In this document: positions 28,296 through 36,080 of the stretch, piece by piece
Position numbering within the stretch: the first letter of the stretch is position 1
How the letters are laid out: each line of letters starts with the position of its first letter
From: Armatimonadota bacterium
GTDB taxonomy: Bacteria > Armatimonadota > Hebobacteria > CAIYQO01
Direction of reading: 5' to 3'
Length of the DNA stretch: 64,000 nt
Assembly: GCA_029553475.1 (NCBI GenBank)
Contig: JAKPKV010000190.1
Coordinates: forward strand, 1 to 64,000
Position numbers and translations under genes: made by a program
The notes under the pieces: generated by a model
What the model saw: only the letters and a program-made list of their open reading frames with translations
Told to the model about the DNA's origin: nothing
Database searches by the model: none

Positions 28296-29255
28296 TCAGC
28301 GCTCCCGCAATCCCGCCCACGCGAGTAGAAAACTCTCCGGCGGCTCCGCTTCCAAGCTCAGCATTTCGCCGGTACGTGGATGGGGGAAGGTGAGGCGGCA
28401 GGCGTGGAGGGCCTGGCCGGGGAGGGCGTCCACCGCGGCGCGGGCGGCCGGGGGGAGGAGGGCGCGGCCGCGTTTCGCGAGGGCGCCGCCGTAGACGGGA
28501 TCGCCGACCACCGGGTGCTGCACGTGCGCCAGATGCACGCGAATCTGGTGGGTGCGGCCCGTGTCCAGGCGGGCGACGACGGCGGTGGCGTGGGGCAGGC
28601 GCTCGCGCACGGTGACGTGGGTGACGGCACGGCGTGCCGGGGCGGCCTGCCGCACCGCCATGCGCTGGCGGTCCGCCGGGTGGCGGCCGATGGGAGCGTC
28701 CACGGTGAAGGCGTCCTCGGTGATGACGCCCCAGGCCAGCGCCAGGTATTCGCGCACCACCGCGCGCCGCTCGATCATCGCCGCCAGCGCGCGGTGCGTC
28801 ACGTCGTTTTTCGCCACCAGCAGCAGGCCCGAGGTGTCCTTGTCCAGCCGGTGGACGATGCCGGGGCGCAGCGTGCCGCCGATGCCGGAGAGATCGCGCA
28901 CGTGATGGAGCAGCGCGTGCACCAGCGTGCCCGTCCAGTTCCCCGCGCCGGGGTGCACTACCAGCCCGGCGGGTTTGTTGATGACCAGCAGGTCGGCGTC
29001 CTGATACCGGATGTCGAGGGGGATGTTCTCCGGTTGGAGGTGGAGAGGCGCCGCCGGTTCCGGCTCATGCAGGGTGATGGTATCGCCGGGCTGTACGCGG
29101 TAGCTGGCCTTTTCCGCGCGGCCATTCACCTGCACGTCGCCGGCTTTCAGCAACTGCTGCACCCGCGCGCGCGAGTGTTGCGGCGCCCGCGCGGCCAGCC
29201 ACGCGTCCAGCCGCGCCCCGCCCTCCGTCACCTGCAGTGTCAGCGTCGTCTCCAT
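28296..29255 (-). CDS. rluD: RluA/RluD-family pseudouridine synthase
   Basis: 319 residues. An N-terminal S4 RNA-binding domain (about 10-65, RLDAWLAA, VNGRAEKASYRV) is followed by the pseudouridine synthase core with catalytic Asp in HRLDKDTSGLLL and the RTHQIRVH motif. It isomerises uridines in 23S rRNA. It closes the lspA-lgt group, the neighbourhood where rluD usually lies. The start at 29255 fits the family. Confidence 0.93.
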   Translation of the reverse strand: METTLTLQVTEGGARLDAWLAARAPQHSRARVQQLLKAGDVQVNGRAEKASYRVQPGDTITLHEPEPAAPLHLQPENIPLDIRYQDADLLVINKPAGLVVHPGAGNWTGTLVHALLHHVRDLSGIGGTLRPGIVHRLDKDTSGLLLVAKNDVTHRALAAMIERRAVVREYLALAWGVITEDAFTVDAPIGRHPADRQRMAVRQAAPARRAVTHVTVRERLPHATAVVARLDTGRTHQIRVHLAHVQHPVVGDPVYGGALAKRGRALLPPAARAAVDALPGQALHACRLTFPHPRTGEMLSLEAEPPESFLLAWAGLRER

Positions 29256-29281
29256 CGGGGGGAGAATTCGCGGCGAGGGCG

Positions 29282-30268
29282 TCAGTTCCCTGCCCGCGCC
29301 GGCGGGGGCGGCAGCGAGGCGGGTTCGGACAGCAGGCGGTCATCCGCCACCACCGCCGGCGTCTTCGGCAGCACGAACCAGCCGACGATGCCGAGGATGA
29401 CGAGGATGACGCTGACGAATTGCGCCGGGGTGACGGCGCCGGCGAAGTTCGGGTCCGGCACGCGATAGATTTCCATCACGAAGCGCTCGATGCCCTCCAG
29501 CACGAGGAAAACCATGAAGAGGCGTCCCGCGCGGCCCAGCCCCTGGCCGCGGGCGAGCAGCAGCAGGATGCCGAACATGGCGAAACCGATGAGCGAGGCG
29601 TAGAGCTGCGCCGGATGCACCGCGTGCGCGGTCTGCGGGAAGGTCACCGCCCACGGGAGTTCCGCCCCTTTCCCCGAACAGCAGCCGTTGAGGAAGCAGC
29701 CGATGCGGGTGATGGCGTAGCCGAGCGCCAGCCCCGGCGCCACGCTGTCCGCCACGCGCCAGTAGGCGAGGCGCGCCAGCAGGACGTAAACGCTGCCGGT
29801 GAGGAGCCCGCCGAGGAGGCCGCCGTGGAAGCTCAAGCCGCCCAGGCCGGAGGCGATCATGCTGCCGACATCAAACAGCGGGCCGGCATCGGGGGTGATG
29901 AGCACCCAGAGCACGCGCGCGCCGATGATGGCGCCCACCAGCACGTAGAGGCCGAGGTCGAGCAGCCGTTCCGCCGGGATGCCCCGCCGCCGGCCCAGCC
30001 GCACGGCGGCCAGGGTGCCGAGCGCGAAGCCGATGGTGAGCATGGCGCCGTACGCCTTCACCTGGATTTCCGGCATGTAGTGCAGCACCAGCAGCGCGGC
30101 GGCGACGAGCGCCAGCACGATGGCGGCGGTGGCGCCGTGCTCGCGGGTGAGGCCGCCGCGGCGGCGCATGACGGCGAGCCAGAGGCCGACGCCGATGACG
30201 GCGAGGAGCAGCAGCGCGCCGACGACCGGCCAGGCCGGGCTGGGGAGCGTGAAAAGCGTGGGTCTCAT
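29282..30268 (-). CDS. lgt: Prolipoprotein diacylglyceryl transferase
   Basis: 328 residues with about seven to eight membrane segments. Transfers diacylglycerol from phosphatidylglycerol to the lipobox cysteine of pre-lipoproteins. Motifs: LSFHGGLLGG with the catalytic-region His, RIGCFLNGCC, HPAQLYASL. The first 40 residues carry an extra hydrophobic pair relative to short homologues. ATG 30268 overlaps the lspA stop by four bases and follows GGAGGTG, so Lgt and LspA, successive steps of lipoprotein maturation, are made together. Confidence 0.93.
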   Translation of the reverse strand: MRPTLFTLPSPAWPVVGALLLLAVIGVGLWLAVMRRRGGLTREHGATAAIVLALVAAALLVLHYMPEIQVKAYGAMLTIGFALGTLAAVRLGRRRGIPAERLLDLGLYVLVGAIIGARVLWVLITPDAGPLFDVGSMIASGLGGLSFHGGLLGGLLTGSVYVLLARLAYWRVADSVAPGLALGYAITRIGCFLNGCCSGKGAELPWAVTFPQTAHAVHPAQLYASLIGFAMFGILLLLARGQGLGRAGRLFMVFLVLEGIERFVMEIYRVPDPNFAGAVTPAQFVSVILVILGIVGWFVLPKTPAVVADDRLLSEPASLPPPPARAGN

Positions 30269-30801
30269 GACGGGGCACCTCCAGGCGGTTCCGCGGGGAC
30301 GGGGGCGGGCCGGCGCTCGACGCGGAAGATGAGGAGCACGAGCAGCCCGATGCCGGCGACCACGCAGATATCCGCCAGGTTGAAGACCGGCCACATCAGC
30401 GTCCGGTCACCGAGTGTGAGTCTGAACGGGAACTGTAAATAATCAATGACATACTGGCGCGTGAGGCGATCCACGAGGTTGCCCACCGCGCCGCCCAGCA
30501 CCAGCGCCGCCGACGCCACGCCCGCGCGGGCGCCCAGGAAGGGCCAGACGAGCAGCAGGAAGACGCCGAGCACGATGAAAATCAGGCTGATGAAGAGCGC
30601 GGGGGGCAAGTGTCCGAAGAGGCCGAAGGCGGCGGCGGGGTTCTCGGTATAGGTGAGCCGCAGCACACCGGGCACAAGCACAGGGGACCCGCCCGCGGAC
30701 AGCGTCCGCGCCACGAGTCCCTTGATGGCTTGATCCGCGGTGAGTATCGGCAGCGCCCAGAGCAGCGCCCATCCCAGCCCGCAGGCGTGTCGTCTCCCCA
30801 A
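30265..30801 (-). CDS. lspA: Lipoprotein signal peptidase (signal peptidase II)
   Basis: 178 residues, four membrane segments. The two catalytic aspartates are in NLVDRLTRQYVIDYL and FNLADICVV, and YTENPAAAFG is the conserved substrate loop. The frame continues upstream into dksA. I place the start at TTG 30801, seven bases after GAGGG and one base after the dksA stop, which gives normal length; no ATG or GTG fits. Cuts lipid-modified prolipoproteins made by Lgt. Confidence 0.9.
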   Translation of the reverse strand: MGRRHACGLGWALLWALPILTADQAIKGLVARTLSAGGSPVLVPGVLRLTYTENPAAAFGLFGHLPPALFISLIFIVLGVFLLLVWPFLGARAGVASAALVLGGAVGNLVDRLTRQYVIDYLQFPFRLTLGDRTLMWPVFNLADICVVAGIGLLVLLIFRVERRPAPVPAEPPGGAPS

Positions 30802-30802
30802 A

Positions 30803-31189
30803 TTACCGTCCCTCGAGCCGATCCTGGCAGAGCAGGCAGAGCGATGCCCAGGGCAGCACCTCCAGCCGGTTGGCGTTGATCTCGGCGCCGCAGGAGTCGC
30901 ACACGCCATAGGTGCCGTCCTCCAGCTTTTCCAGGGCCACGTTGATCTTCTCCAGCATGTCTTCCAGATTGCCTTCCAGCGCCAGGTCCTTCTCACGCTC
31001 AAACGTCTCGGACGCCAGGTCGGCGGGATGATCGTCGTAGTTGGACAGCTCGGTGGCCTGTTCAAGGTCCGCGGTGTGCGCGGTGCGCTCCAGAATCTCC
31101 TGCAGCTCGCGCTCCAGCCGATCCTTTTCTTCCAGCAATCGTTTCTTGATGGCCCGCAAGCGAGCCGGCGAATGCTGCGCGGTGGTCAT
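30803..31189 (-). CDS. DksA/TraR-type zinc-finger regulator
   Basis: 128 residues: an N-terminal coiled coil (about 8-50), an NYDDHPADLASE segment typical of the YocK/YteA branch, and a four-cysteine zinc finger C97/C100/C118/C121. Family members bind the secondary channel of RNA polymerase and alter initiation. This branch is often encoded between ileS and lspA, as here. It is cotranscribed with lspA and lgt; the gap to ileS is 213 bases. Confidence 0.9.
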   Translation of the reverse strand: MTTAQHSPARLRAIKKRLLEEKDRLERELQEILERTAHTADLEQATELSNYDDHPADLASETFEREKDLALEGNLEDMLEKINVALEKLEDGTYGVCDSCGAEINANRLEVLPWASLCLLCQDRLEGR

Positions 31190-31402: not shown

Positions 31403-34198
31403 TCACCCCGCGGCGCCGACCGCGTCCGCGCACGCCGCGCAGAGATCGGGGAACGCCGCGTCCCCGCCGACCGGCCGCCAGTGGCGACAGCGCGGGCAGC
31501 GCGTCGCCGCCGCCGGCGCGGCGGTCACCGCCAGTCCGCCGTCCCGACCGCGGACGGCCTCGTCCGGCGCGTCATCGCCGGACGCGCAGGCCACCTCGGC
31601 CACGCCGAAGGCGGCCGCCAGGGTTTCCGGCATTATTTCCAGCAAGCGCCGAAATTCTCCTGCAAGGTAGAGGATGACTTTTCCGCGGCGCGGCGCGGCC
31701 ATCGTCGCGGCCGCCAGCGCGTCCCGCACCACCCGCCGCGCCGCCCACACCAGCGCCCAGCGCGCCCGGCGCTCCGCGTCATCGGGCGCGGCCGCCATCG
31801 TCGGCCAAGGCGCGAGCTGCGGGCTGGCGGGACGGCCCGTCGCCGGCGGCAGGCAGCGCCAGAGCTCTTCCGCGGTGAAACTCAGCAACGGCGCCAGCAG
31901 GCGGGCGAGCGTTTCGGCCATGAGGTAGCAGGTGGTCTGCGCCGCGCGCCGGGTGGGAGCATCGGGCGCCGCCAGCAGCAGCCGGTCATGCGCCAGCGGC
32001 AGGTAGCGCGCCGTCAGCGCCGCGCAGAACGCGACCAGCGCGTGCGCCGCCTGGTGGGGGCGATACCCCTCGAAGGCCGCCGTCGCCTGCGCCACGAGCG
32101 CGCGCACCTGTCCCAGCGCCCAGCGGTCCGCGTCCTCCAGCGCCGTCTCCGGCAGCAGCATGCTGTCCGGCAGGAAGTCGTAAAGATGCCCGAGCAGGCT
32201 GCGCGCCGCCGCCCGCAGGCGGCGGTAGACGCGCGCCGCCCGCGCCAGGTCTTCCCCGGCGACTCGCGTATCGGCGCGGGCATCGGTGAGCGCCGCCCAC
32301 CAGCGCAGGATATCCGCGCCGTGCTCCGCCACCGCCGCCTGCGGGTCGGGGCCGGGGTCGCGCGCGTCTGGCCCATCTTCCGCGCGCGCCAGCACGAAGC
32401 CATGCGAGACGACGGCGCGGAACGGCGGCGGCTGCTCCAGCGCCGCCGCGACCAGCAGCGTCAATCCGAACCAGCCGCGATACTGGTCCTGCCCCTCCAG
32501 CGCCAGGTCCGCCGGCCAGGCGAGCTCCGGATGCTGCAGCGCCAGCGCCGCCGGGCTGCAGGCCGACTCGAACCAGACGTCCACGATCTCCCGCGCCTTG
32601 CGAAAACGCGCGCCGCCGCAGCGCGGGCAGGCGAAGCCCTCCGGCGTGAACGCGCGCGCCGGTCGGCTCCACCAGGCGTCCGCGCCGTCCACTTCCACCA
32701 CCTCCGCCGCGCGCCCCACCACCGCCGGCGTCAGCAGCCGCTCGCCGCAGCCGGCACAGACCAGCGCGGGGATGGGGATGCCCCAGGCGCGCTGGCGCGA
32801 CAGACACCAGTCGGGCCGGTCGGCGAGCAGCGCCAGCATGCGCGCCCGGCCCCAGGCGGGATGCCAGGCGATGCTGTCAGCCGCCTCCCGCAGGCGGTCG
32901 CGCAGCGGGGCGACGCGCAGGAACCAGTGCGGCATGGCGCGGGTGATCAGCGGCCCGCCGCAGCGCCAGCAGTGCTCAGCCGGCATCTCCTGCAGGCGAT
33001 ACGAGAGCAGCACGCCATCACGATCCAACTGCTGCAGGATCGCGTGCCGGGCTTCAGCTACCGTCAGGTCGGCGAATGTCCCGGTACGCGCCGCCATCCG
33101 CCCCTGGTCGGTGATGATGGGCAATACGGGCAGGTCGCGTCCCCGCGCCAGCGCGTAGTCCGCGTGATCCGTGCCCGGGGAGACGACCTCGATGCCGGTG
33201 CGCGGGTCCGCCGTCTCCCGGCCGGCGAGGAGCACCGGCAATTCCCGGCCGGTGAGCGGATGCAGCACGACCAGCGCCTCCAGCTCCTGCCCCAGCGCCT
33301 CGCCCAGCACGAACGGCTCGCGCATGCCGATGGCGTGGCCGAAGGGCCGCACGCGGTCGCGCGCCACCAGGTAGGCGAAGCCTTCCGGGTCGGCGCGGTC
33401 CGTCACCAGCGCGTAGCTCGTCTCCGGATGCAGCGTCACCGCCACCGCCGCCGGCAGCGCCCACGGCTGGCCGGTCCAGATCGCCGCCGCCATCCGCGCG
33501 CGGTCCTCGCCGGGAAAGAGCCACCGCGGCAGGCGCAGCACCGGCAGCGCCACGTGCGCCGTCGCCGTCTCGCGCGCGCGCGCCTCCACCTCGGCGTCGG
33601 AGAGCGACGCCTGGCAAGCGGGGCACCAGCGCACCGGCATCGGCGCCTGGTAGATCAGCTCGCGCGCCACCAGCGCCCGCAGCACGCGCAGCACCGTGCT
33701 TTCGTAGGTGGGCTGCGTGGTCAGGTACGGCGCGTCCCAGTCGGCGCGCACGCCCAGCCGGATGGCCTGCGCCCGCTGTGCGGCCATCGCCCGGCGCGCC
33801 CGCGCCGCGCAGCGTCGCCGCACCGCGCGCGCCGACCGCGCCGCCGCCCCCGGTCCCAGCTTGCGGATGACGGCGATCTCCGGGGGCAGGCCGTGCATAT
33901 CCCAGCCGGGGATGAAGGGGGTGGCATAGCCGCGCATGCCCTTATACTTCAGCACGAAGTCTTTCAGCAGCCGGTTCAGCGCCCGTCCCAGGTGTAGGCC
34001 GCCGTCGCAAAAGGGCGGGCCGTCGTGCAGGAAGAAGAGCGGCCGGTCACCGCCGGCGGCCTGCCCATACAGGTCAATCTCCGCCCAGTGCCGCAGCGTC
34101 TCCCGCTCCGCGCGCGCCGACGCGCGCGGCGGAAACGCCGTCCGCGGCACGTTGATGCTCCACGCGTATGATCCGACCCGCCGCCCTTTCCCCGCCAT
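31403..34198 (-). CDS. ileS: Isoleucyl-tRNA synthetase homologue with degenerate catalytic signatures
   Basis: 931 residues, full IleS length and domain order: Rossmann core, CP1 editing insert, WCLSRQRAWGIP, anticodon-binding helices, C-terminal zinc finger (CPRC...CAAC). Key signatures are broken. HIGH is HLGR (residues 69-72), with PYANG changed to PFCDG. KMSKS is absent, its place (604-617) filled by a Pro/Asp/Gly-rich run between HGFVL and DPQAAV. The editing TTTPWT is TGQPWA (about 242-247). Yet no stop or frameshift interrupts it, and WDMHGLP, ADILRWW and the zinc ligands persist. Located at the standard ileS position upstream of dksA-lspA. Either a repurposed paralogue or an enzyme with altered chemistry. 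Confidence 0.88.
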   Translation of the reverse strand: MAGKGRRVGSYAWSINVPRTAFPPRASARAERETLRHWAEIDLYGQAAGGDRPLFFLHDGPPFCDGGLHLGRALNRLLKDFVLKYKGMRGYATPFIPGWDMHGLPPEIAVIRKLGPGAAARSARAVRRRCAARARRAMAAQRAQAIRLGVRADWDAPYLTTQPTYESTVLRVLRALVARELIYQAPMPVRWCPACQASLSDAEVEARARETATAHVALPVLRLPRWLFPGEDRARMAAAIWTGQPWALPAAVAVTLHPETSYALVTDRADPEGFAYLVARDRVRPFGHAIGMREPFVLGEALGQELEALVVLHPLTGRELPVLLAGRETADPRTGIEVVSPGTDHADYALARGRDLPVLPIITDQGRMAARTGTFADLTVAEARHAILQQLDRDGVLLSYRLQEMPAEHCWRCGGPLITRAMPHWFLRVAPLRDRLREAADSIAWHPAWGRARMLALLADRPDWCLSRQRAWGIPIPALVCAGCGERLLTPAVVGRAAEVVEVDGADAWWSRPARAFTPEGFACPRCGGARFRKAREIVDVWFESACSPAALALQHPELAWPADLALEGQDQYRGWFGLTLLVAAALEQPPPFRAVVSHGFVLARAEDGPDARDPGPDPQAAVAEHGADILRWWAALTDARADTRVAGEDLARAARVYRRLRAAARSLLGHLYDFLPDSMLLPETALEDADRWALGQVRALVAQATAAFEGYRPHQAAHALVAFCAALTARYLPLAHDRLLLAAPDAPTRRAAQTTCYLMAETLARLLAPLLSFTAEELWRCLPPATGRPASPQLAPWPTMAAAPDDAERRARWALVWAARRVVRDALAAATMAAPRRGKVILYLAGEFRRLLEIMPETLAAAFGVAEVACASGDDAPDEAVRGRDGGLAVTAAPAAATRCPRCRHWRPVGGDAAFPDLCAACADAVGAAG

Positions 34199-34525
34199 CG
34201 CCCGCTCCTCATCCCACGCCGAATACCCTTACTGTTCCCCGTCTTCCCGGCCTCACGCGCTTCTCGTTCGGCGGCGTGGGCGCGTGTCTTTGCACACTGG
34301 CGAGACAATTGCACCAGCCGGAGAGCAAAAGGTAGGCGGAAGGCGTATCGCGCGGTGATGCGCGCCCGCCGCAAGGGTGATCGGCAGCGGCGCCGGCGAA
34401 TGATGATCCGTGATGGCTGGTCCGCTCGTGGTTGAAAAGGCGGGCGGTCCCCTTGCGGAGAAAACACGGCGAGCGGGGACGGCGGGGCCGTCCCCGCCCC
34501 TGTCCGAGCTTTCATCACACACCGA
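34199..34525. other. Intergenic region upstream of the ileS homologue
   Basis: About 330 bases. It holds a perfect 11-bp hairpin with three-base loop (34473-34483 with 34487-34497), GC-rich with no T-run, probably related to termination of the fusion ATPase gene that ends at 34526. No T-box-like leader was recognised. Confidence 0.5.
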
Positions 34526-36013
34526 TCATCCCAGCAGGCGCGCCACTTCCTCCAGCGTCGTTTCCCCTTCGGCGGCGAGGCGGATAGCGTCGGCGTACAG
34601 GGTGCGCATGCCCTGGCCCACGGCGACGGCCTGCAGTTCGTCGGGGGTGACGCCGGCGAGATAGGCCTTCTTCACTGCCGGGACGAATTCCAGCATCTCG
34701 AAGGCCAGCGTGCGCCCGCGATACCCCGTTCCGCCGCAGGCGGGGCAGCCGGCGGCCGTATAAAAGGTCGCTCCCTCGGGGATGCGATAACCGCCGTGCT
34801 CGGCTTGGCGCTGCAGGTCGGCCAGGACGGCGCGGGACAGGGGCCGCGACTGCCGGCAGTCGGGACAGAGTGTGCGCATCAGCCGCTGGCAGGTGATGCC
34901 GATGAGCACGTCGGCGGCGATGTAACTGATCTCGCGCCACCGCACTTCGGGGAACACGCTCACCAGGTAGGACGGCACGAACGACGCGTAGGTGCTGTAG
35001 GCCTGCGACAGCACCAGGTGGCCGGTGCGCGCGATACACAGGCCGAGCTCGATGGTTTCCAGGTTCTGCAGCTCGCCGATCATGACGACGTCGGGGTCGC
35101 TGCGCATGAGCGCGCGGAGCGCATTGGCATAGGTGGCGCCGTCGCGGTTGGTGATGGACACCTGCGTCACCCACGGCAGCTGCAGCTCGATGGGATTTTC
35201 CATGGAGTAGACCGCGCGCGACGGCCCCGCCAGCGCCAGCACCGCCTCATAGAGGATGGTCGTTTTGCCGCTGCCCGCCGGCCCGGTACAAAGGATCAGC
35301 CCGCTCGACTGCTCCAACCAGCGCCGCAGCCGGGCCAGGGTATCCTCCGCCAGCCCGCGATTGTCCAAACCGAGGTGGCATGTCGCCGCCGACGCCAGCA
35401 GGCGCAGGGAGACTGTCTCGCCATAGAGCGCGGGGATGAGCGTGGCGCGGATATCGAGGGGCGTGCCGTCGAACTCGAGGGCGATACGGCCATCGCGGGT
35501 GAAGACCTCCAGGCCCGCCAGCGCTTTCAACCGCAGCAGGATCGCGTGGAAAACACGCGGGGCGACGCGGCGCACTTCCTGCAGCACGCCATCAATACGG
35601 TAGCGCAGCAGGTGGACCAGCGCGTTGTCTTCCTTGAAGATGTCCAGATGAATGTCGCTGGCCCCGCGCGCCGCGGCCAGGTGGAGAATCGCCGCCACCA
35701 GCGCCGCGCTCTTGCGCTCGGCGGGGTCGTCAAGCGCCGGCTCCGGGGCAGGCGCCCGGCCCAGTGCCGCCAATGCGCCGGTGAAGAAGGCCAGCTCGCC
35801 CTCCAGCGCCGCCAGCGGCACCGCGGAGAGCGCCACCGCCGCCGGCCCGCGGTCCAGGTAGGCGGCCAGCTCGTCACGCCGGAAGCGCCACTGGTTGCCC
35901 ACTTTCGTCCCCTTCACCTTCCCCTGCTCCAGCAGGCGGTACATGGTCGGCTTGCTGATCCCCAGCATCGCCGTCGCTTCTCCCAGGGAGAGCAGATCCT
36001 CTTGTGGGGCCAT
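34526..36013 (-). CDS. HTH_17 domain fused to GspE/PilB-type ATPase
   Basis: 495 residues. Residues 5-52 form a MerR/excisionase-type helix-turn-helix (LSLGEATAMLGISKPTMYRLL, VGNQWRFRRDEL in parts). Residues about 95-490 are a secretion ATPase: SDIHLDIF and LRYRIDG, Walker A GPAGSGKTT (about 240-248), a Walker-B-like VVMIGEL, and a C-terminal tetracysteine zinc site (CPDC, CPAC). The Asp and His boxes are altered: GELQNLET instead of GEIRDxET, and QAYSTYA instead of TLHTNDA. So motor activity is doubtful. No pilus or secretion genes adjoin. A strong promoter and AAGGAGG precede the start. Confidence 0.85.
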   Translation of the reverse strand: MAPQEDLLSLGEATAMLGISKPTMYRLLEQGKVKGTKVGNQWRFRRDELAAYLDRGPAAVALSAVPLAALEGELAFFTGALAALGRAPAPEPALDDPAERKSAALVAAILHLAAARGASDIHLDIFKEDNALVHLLRYRIDGVLQEVRRVAPRVFHAILLRLKALAGLEVFTRDGRIALEFDGTPLDIRATLIPALYGETVSLRLLASAATCHLGLDNRGLAEDTLARLRRWLEQSSGLILCTGPAGSGKTTILYEAVLALAGPSRAVYSMENPIELQLPWVTQVSITNRDGATYANALRALMRSDPDVVMIGELQNLETIELGLCIARTGHLVLSQAYSTYASFVPSYLVSVFPEVRWREISYIAADVLIGITCQRLMRTLCPDCRQSRPLSRAVLADLQRQAEHGGYRIPEGATFYTAAGCPACGGTGYRGRTLAFEMLEFVPAVKKAYLAGVTPDELQAVAVGQGMRTLYADAIRLAAEGETTLEEVARLLG

Positions 36014-36052
36014 CGCTGAATCCTCCTTCTTAATCAACATGTTCCATTTGTC

Positions 36053-36080
36053 ATTATACATCAGCTTTTTACTTAGTCAA
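36053..36080 (-). promoter_or_regulatory. Near-consensus sigma-70 promoter of the HTH-GspE gene
   Basis: Minus strand: TTGACT (36075-36080), 16-base AT-rich spacer, TATAAT (36053-36058). Predicted transcription start about 36046, giving a leader of about 33 bases to ATG 36013. The strongest promoter match in the window, in an AT-rich pocket. Confidence 0.8.

Follow-up and report, generated by a model that had tools for sequence, protein, structure and literature searches.

The ileS locus and its altered synthetase

The window, a stretch of 64,000 nucleotides from an Armatimonadota bacterium, contains a frame of 931 codons at 31403–34198, open throughout; this and every other feature located below lie on the reverse strand (−). 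The frame matches class I tRNA synthetase models, with IleRS1 as the nearest type, and the solved structures 8c9e and 1ffy/1qu2 align along nearly the entire length of its product. Against TIGR00392, the model for isoleucine--tRNA ligase, it scores 546.5 bits, below the curated cut-off of 621.4, as does its orthologue in a second genome of the same genus, G001 (553.2 bits), while the IleRS1 of G002, a member of the same family, scores 880.6. It is designated here a degenerate IleRS1, or pseudo-isoleucyl-tRNA synthetase, of 931 aa. Assignment to IleRS2 was rejected because the protein has the C-terminal Cys4 of IleRS1 and is much nearer to IleRS1s (36–47% identity) than to IleRS2s (28–31%).

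A ribosome-binding site, GAGGAG, read from the sequence, precedes the gene at 34205–34210, and the orthologue is preceded by the identical GATGAGGAGCGG. Between the gene and an upstream GspE-like gene lies a 13-bp terminator-like hairpin (34471–34499). The upstream gene (34526–36061) encodes an ATPase of the GspE/PilB family whose N-terminus carries a fused excisionase-type helix-turn-helix (residues 24–70); Walker A is kept, GELQN and AYSTY stand in place of the GEIRD and LHTND-type motifs, and the gene is missing at the corresponding place in L009/G001 (L009 and G001 contig C4, equal in length and in match coordinates, are counted here as one genome, not two). Directly downstream is a TraR/DksA-family zinc-finger gene (30803–31189) whose protein is 100% identical in G001. 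It is followed by lspA, lgt and rluD (28296–30802), a conserved ileS neighbourhood that has the same order in G002, with protein identities of 46.7, 57.7 and 70.5%, respectively; lspA and lgt are also present in L009/G001. A sequence-only reading of the window had placed a full-length IleS at the standard ileS locus, and this is borne out by an open, IleRS1-like frame in the ancestral ileS–traR/dksA–lspA–lgt–rluD arrangement.

The protein and its orthologue were aligned with 41 canonical IleRS1s and two IleRS2s. The motifs GPP, GWDxHG, DVWF and EGxDQxRGWF, which we take from established IleRS structures to form the isoleucine and ribose pocket, are kept. The near-invariant GWDxHG reads GWDMHG (residues 98–103, 33890–33907), the pocket tryptophan is kept in DVWFESA (540–546, 32561–32581), where Gly546 has become Ala, and the isoleucine and ribose contact motif reads EGQDQYRGWF (568–577, 32468–32497). 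WCxSRQRxWG is likewise retained (WCLSRQR, 464–470, 32789–32809), as are ADILRWW (628–634) and the ligands of the C-terminal Cys4 zinc module (901/904/920/923 within residues 901–923, 31430–31498), all as the sequence-only reading had recorded. Its positions and coordinates for the altered motifs (HLGR, PFCDG, TGQPWA and the gap without KMSKS) also proved correct on re-reading.

The losses fall on catalysis and editing. No lysine is present between HGFVL (599–603) and PDPQAAV (617–623), the stretch that contains the former KMSKS loop (604–617, 32348–32389), and the conserved Asp604 preceding the loop is also gone. The editing threonine motif TTTPWT is destroyed, reading TGQPWA (242–247, 33458–33475), so that the canonical TTT is TGQ in the window protein and TCQ in the orthologue. 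All 41 canonical IleRS1s and both IleRS2s have TTTPWT as well as the second Lys of KMSKS, and both disarmed copies have lost them. As the orthologue comes from an independently assembled genome, chance and sequencing or assembly error were rejected as explanations. The editing histidine motif, which the sequence-only reading had missed, is destroyed as well: GIEVVSPGTDHAD occupies residues 335–347 (33158–33196) in place of the canonical GxVHTAPGHGxxD, with the last Asp of that pattern retained. Within it HTAPGHGxDD has become VVSPGTDHAD in the window protein and VVCPGTDNED in the orthologue, replacing the catalytic His by Val. Judged by these residues, the editing site of the window protein is destroyed. 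Both disarmed copies retain 127 of the 173 near-invariant positions and both have lost 42, with losses enriched in the CP1 editing domain, where 17 of 34 such residues are affected (Fisher p = 0.001). Upstream of the HIGH equivalent, PxxNG reads PFCDG (62–66, 34001–34015); the position of Asn65 is N in 39 of the 41 canonical IleRS1s and D in both disarmed copies.

The HIGH motif is weaker evidence. Its equivalent is HLGR (69–72, 33983–33994) in the window protein and HLGQ in the orthologue, as had been read, but the loss had been overstated: the change is confined to the fourth residue, and canonical IleRS1s nearby commonly have HXGQ or HXGT. HLGR alone is therefore not diagnostic, and HIGH loss was rejected as proof of inactivity. 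At the fourth position, many IleRS1s of Armatimonadota and Acidobacteria that are canonical in other respects have Gln or Thr in place of His (examples are L061, L070, L071, L060, L074 and L075; L010–L013 and L025; L042 and L055), and for several Armatimonadota genomes with such an IleRS1 the search found no second IleRS. Variation of HXGH has been described as not tolerated in IleRS1, GXHH having been the variant tested (PMC10485003). The first Lys of KMSKS is also replaced in many Armatimonadota IleRS1s (AMHKS or PMHKS in L035, L028, L029, L031, L050 and others), and the second Lys is always kept in these.

An AlphaFold2 model built from a 28-sequence alignment has a mean pLDDT of 90.1 and a pTM of 0.87. 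Only the N-terminal end and residues 608–614, in the former KMSKS loop, fall below a pLDDT of 50. The best PDB matches of the model are IleRS1 structures, with TM-scores of 0.85–0.89 to 8c9e/1qu2. The IleRS1 fold is thus predicted to be intact and full-length, the KMSKS loop excepted.

A second synthetase and the history of the first

A second, functional IleS had been predicted elsewhere in the genome, and a search of the window genome (G000) located a complete IleRS2 on the 196-kb contig C159 (L064). It scores 887 bits against a cut-off of 621, and its GVHH, KMSKS and TTTPWT motifs are all present. The genome is ~99.5% complete with 4% contamination, and the occurrence of IleRS2 in G001 and G002 argues against a binning error. 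The G001 copy consists of the start only, cut by a contig end and 91% identical over the aligned start; that of G002 is full-length (C32, L059) and 73–74% identical. With these motifs, the IleRS2 on C159 can carry out tRNA-Ile charging in the window genome. Among IleRS2s GXHH is an established functional motif, one that has been linked to mupirocin hyper-resistance (PMC10485003), and the IleRS2s of both these uncultured Armatimonadota (G000:C159 and G002:C32) carry it as GVHH.

The orthologue in G001 is full-length (932 codons), 84% identical to the window protein and beside the same neighbours; it has HLGQ and TCQPWA and no KMSKS. G002 has a canonical IleRS1 with HLGH, KQSKS and TTTPWT in the corresponding position, ahead of lspA, lgt and rluD, with 46–47% identity to the window protein. 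Maximum-likelihood analysis places the window and G001 proteins, with full support, as the sister group of the G002 IleRS1. Their shared stem measures 1.91 substitutions per site, against 0.32 for G002, and is followed by branches of 0.13 and 0.10. Across the same genomes IleRS2 made no comparable jump, with 73–74% identity against 46–47% for IleRS1. By this tree, the disarmed pair changed in a burst along its stem and evolved slowly thereafter. Coexistence with IleRS2 was rejected as a sufficient cause of the disarming, since in G002 a canonical IleRS1 persists alongside IleRS2; the IleRS1 motifs are also kept in G003, G010, G226, G227, G230 and G238, each of which has a second match.

In the 291 Armatimonadota genomes searched, the disarmed form was found in two species only. 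Among the matches listed, 84% identity occurs only in the two genomes of the window genus, G002 follows at 47%, and the others, some of which had their motifs read, lie at 33–42%. A wider clade of disarmed IleRS1s was rejected, close relatives being confined to the window genus and G002 being canonical. IleRS genes split into distant pieces were seen in G006:C1 (L083, L084), G004 (L085, L086) and G012:C1 (L087, L088); these are likely assembly artefacts, because some pieces end at N runs or contig ends.

Selection on the disarmed protein

The two disarmed copies, the only species pair available for measuring selection on this form, have a dN/dS of 0.24 (0.239; bootstrap 0.195–0.295) by NG86, a simple method whose model does not cover strong GC bias. 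The value signifies purifying selection and speaks against simple decay. Neighbouring genes range from 0.00 to 0.38 (lgt 0.22, lspA 0.38) and functional IleRS1 pairs from 0.08 to 0.21, slightly below the disarmed pair. Constraint is uneven along the protein: dN/dS is 0.10 in the N-terminal catalytic part and 0.06 (0.057) in residues 528–602, and the anticodon and C-terminal domains are somewhat relaxed (0.36 and 0.35). Ordinary IleRS1 pairs also conserve the core more than the C-terminus, so this pattern cannot alone locate a new function. The former KMSKS loop is only 50% identical between the two species, against 94–100% in functional pairs; having no lysine and varying freely, the loop is evidently not in use. 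At changed near-invariant positions, 34 of 45 carry the identical new residue in both species.

A pseudogene that has yet to acquire a stop would fit some of these observations. The intact second IleRS makes the window gene dispensable for charging, relaxed selection could have produced the long stem branch, and stops are slow to appear in such GC-rich DNA: under the most favourable base composition, 3–10% of single lineages remained stop-free in neutral simulations, depending on branch length. At a neutral composition of 70% GC, however, only 0–0.9% did, and the gene is open without a frameshift in both species. The upper bootstrap bound of dN/dS is 0.30 when rounded, constraint by domain is near that of functional enzymes, and the ribosome-binding site is conserved. 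The dN/dS, the shared new residues, the stop simulations and the conserved ribosome-binding site together make simple decay very unlikely; the pseudogene reading is already largely refuted, and at the level of sequence a retained function of the disarmed protein is well supported.

Proposed role and comparison with known systems

These results favour, with a probability of about 0.7, a reading in which the family's vertically inherited IleRS1 was freed by IleRS2, disarmed and brought again under purifying selection as a pseudo-synthetase that probably binds isoleucine or tRNA-Ile and does not charge. In the ancestor IleRS1 coexisted with IleRS2, a state still present in G002. In the window genus a motif-complete IleRS2 is available for tRNA-Ile charging, and the burst of change in IleRS1 removed both the KMSKS loop, which activates ATP, and the editing site. 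What was left then returned to purifying selection; the sequences themselves show these steps. The IleRS1 fold would have persisted, and the retained synthetic-site pocket would bind L-isoleucine, tRNA-Ile (uncharged, or charged by IleRS2) or both. Such a protein would act without adenylation and without charging tRNA. We infer the binding of isoleucine or tRNA-Ile from the conserved motifs. Annotation by locus or homology would label the window protein the cell's isoleucine--tRNA ligase, which, from its motifs, it very probably is not; selection to preserve a disarmed protein implies that it presently has another task.

The new role proposed by the sequence-only reading is thus upheld as far as purifying selection without KMSKS or an editing site goes, and not as to which role it is. 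It may be, at somewhat short of even odds, that the displaced resident IleRS1 has taken on a new function as a full-length pseudo-synthetase of class I, becoming either a dedicated non-catalytic sensor of isoleucine or tRNA-Ile charging or a protein that transfers isoleucine from Ile-tRNA. The likeliest single role, put forward tentatively by analogy with HisZ, is a sensor or regulatory subunit responding to isoleucine or tRNA-Ile. An Rfam search upstream of the gene returned no T-box or other known RNA (E up to 1), and the neighbourhood, made up of housekeeping genes, offers neither an operon partner nor a regulatory RNA from which a function could be read.

The second-ranked role, by analogy with SbzA, is an Ile-tRNA-dependent aminoacyltransferase that would pass isoleucine from the Ile-tRNA of the second IleRS to another molecule and would need neither KMSKS nor editing. 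SbzA, itself IleRS-like, does this with the Ile-tRNA of the housekeeping IleRS (PMC6331615), and the loss of KMSKS with retention of the isoleucine pocket and architecture is what such a role would permit. SbzA, however, still has HYGH and AMSKA in place and is part of a biosynthetic cluster (PMC12945691), whereas KMSKS is gone here, the neighbours (TraR/DksA, lspA, lgt, rluD and pyruvate dehydrogenase genes) are not biosynthetic and the anticodon domain is under no special constraint, which leaves this role unlikely. Less likely again is a slow residual enzyme whose selected function is to make isoleucyl-adenylate without KMSKS. The retained first His of HIGH, Gly71 and the E-G-x-D-Q-x-R-G-W-F motif would suit it, and Sulfolobaceae LeuRS-I, whose editing domain is disrupted, binds tRNA and forms the adenylate without charging (PMC9437257). 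Against it stand the lysine-free, freely varying loop and the lost Asp604; with KMSKS lost, adenylation is unlikely. The suggestion of an antibiotic decoy, a dead IleRS1 that binds and titrates mupirocin-like inhibitors, draws on IleRS1 being the mupirocin-binding type (PMC10485003) and on the kept isoleucine pocket. It is very improbable: the mupirocin-contacting KMSKS loop is lost, and the resident IleRS2 carries GXHH, the motif linked to hyper-resistance in the same study, so that no decoy is needed. A still working IleRS with a new catalytic solution, the other idea of the sequence-only reading, is hardly credible. The predicted full-length fold and the pocket are those of a synthetase, but an intact IleRS2 is present in the same genome, the KMSKS loop is unconstrained and, with the editing site also gone, valine errors would stay uncorrected.

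A comparison of the proposed pseudo-synthetase with known systems sets these features in context. With IleRS1 (TIGR00392; 8c9e, 1qu2) it shares the fold, domain order, isoleucine pocket, WCxSRQRxWG and C-terminal Cys4, and differs in lacking KMSKS, the editing threonines and the editing histidine and in scoring below the family cut-off. Synthetase-like proteins with new roles are known, and their origins are usually too old for reconstruction. HisZ, which has a regulatory role, and other synthetase-like regulatory subunits likewise use a synthetase fold for ligand binding without charging, as the window protein probably does; HisZ is of class II and of another family, and no biosynthetic partner was found at the window locus. 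HisZ is listed among synthetase paralogues (PMC9437257). Priestia megaterium, like G002, has IleRS1 and IleRS2 in one genome, both functional there (PMC10485003), whereas the window IleRS1 is disarmed.

SbzA (PMC6331615) and LeuRS-I (PMC9437257) demonstrate that such re-use occurs in this enzyme class. No report of a KMSKS-less IleRS paralogue appeared in the mostly open-access literature searched. SbzA, of SB-203207 biosynthesis, is an IleRS-like second protein with IleRS architecture beside a housekeeping IleRS; its HIGH and KMSKS are modified (HYGH, AMSKA) and it belongs to a biosynthetic cluster, whereas the window protein has no loop lysine and housekeeping neighbours. LeuRS-I is a full-length class Ia paralogue with a disrupted editing domain, retained beside an active enzyme. 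It does not charge tRNA, as the window protein probably does not, but it still makes leucyl-adenylate, whereas the window protein is without the KMSKS loop. In the window genome, moreover, it is the resident IleRS1 that has been disarmed, still in its ancestral position, and the enzyme it accompanies, IleRS2, is of another type. As SbzA and LeuRS-I differ from the window protein in motifs or activity, it is filed with neither. Synthetase-derived proteins without the synthetase reaction are thus already known; here the whole sequence of steps is visible within one family, from both enzymes canonical in G002, to IleRS1 disarmed at the same locus in a sister genus, to renewed constraint. Both the takeover from an essential enzyme by one of a second type and the new use of the enzyme displaced thereby become directly testable.
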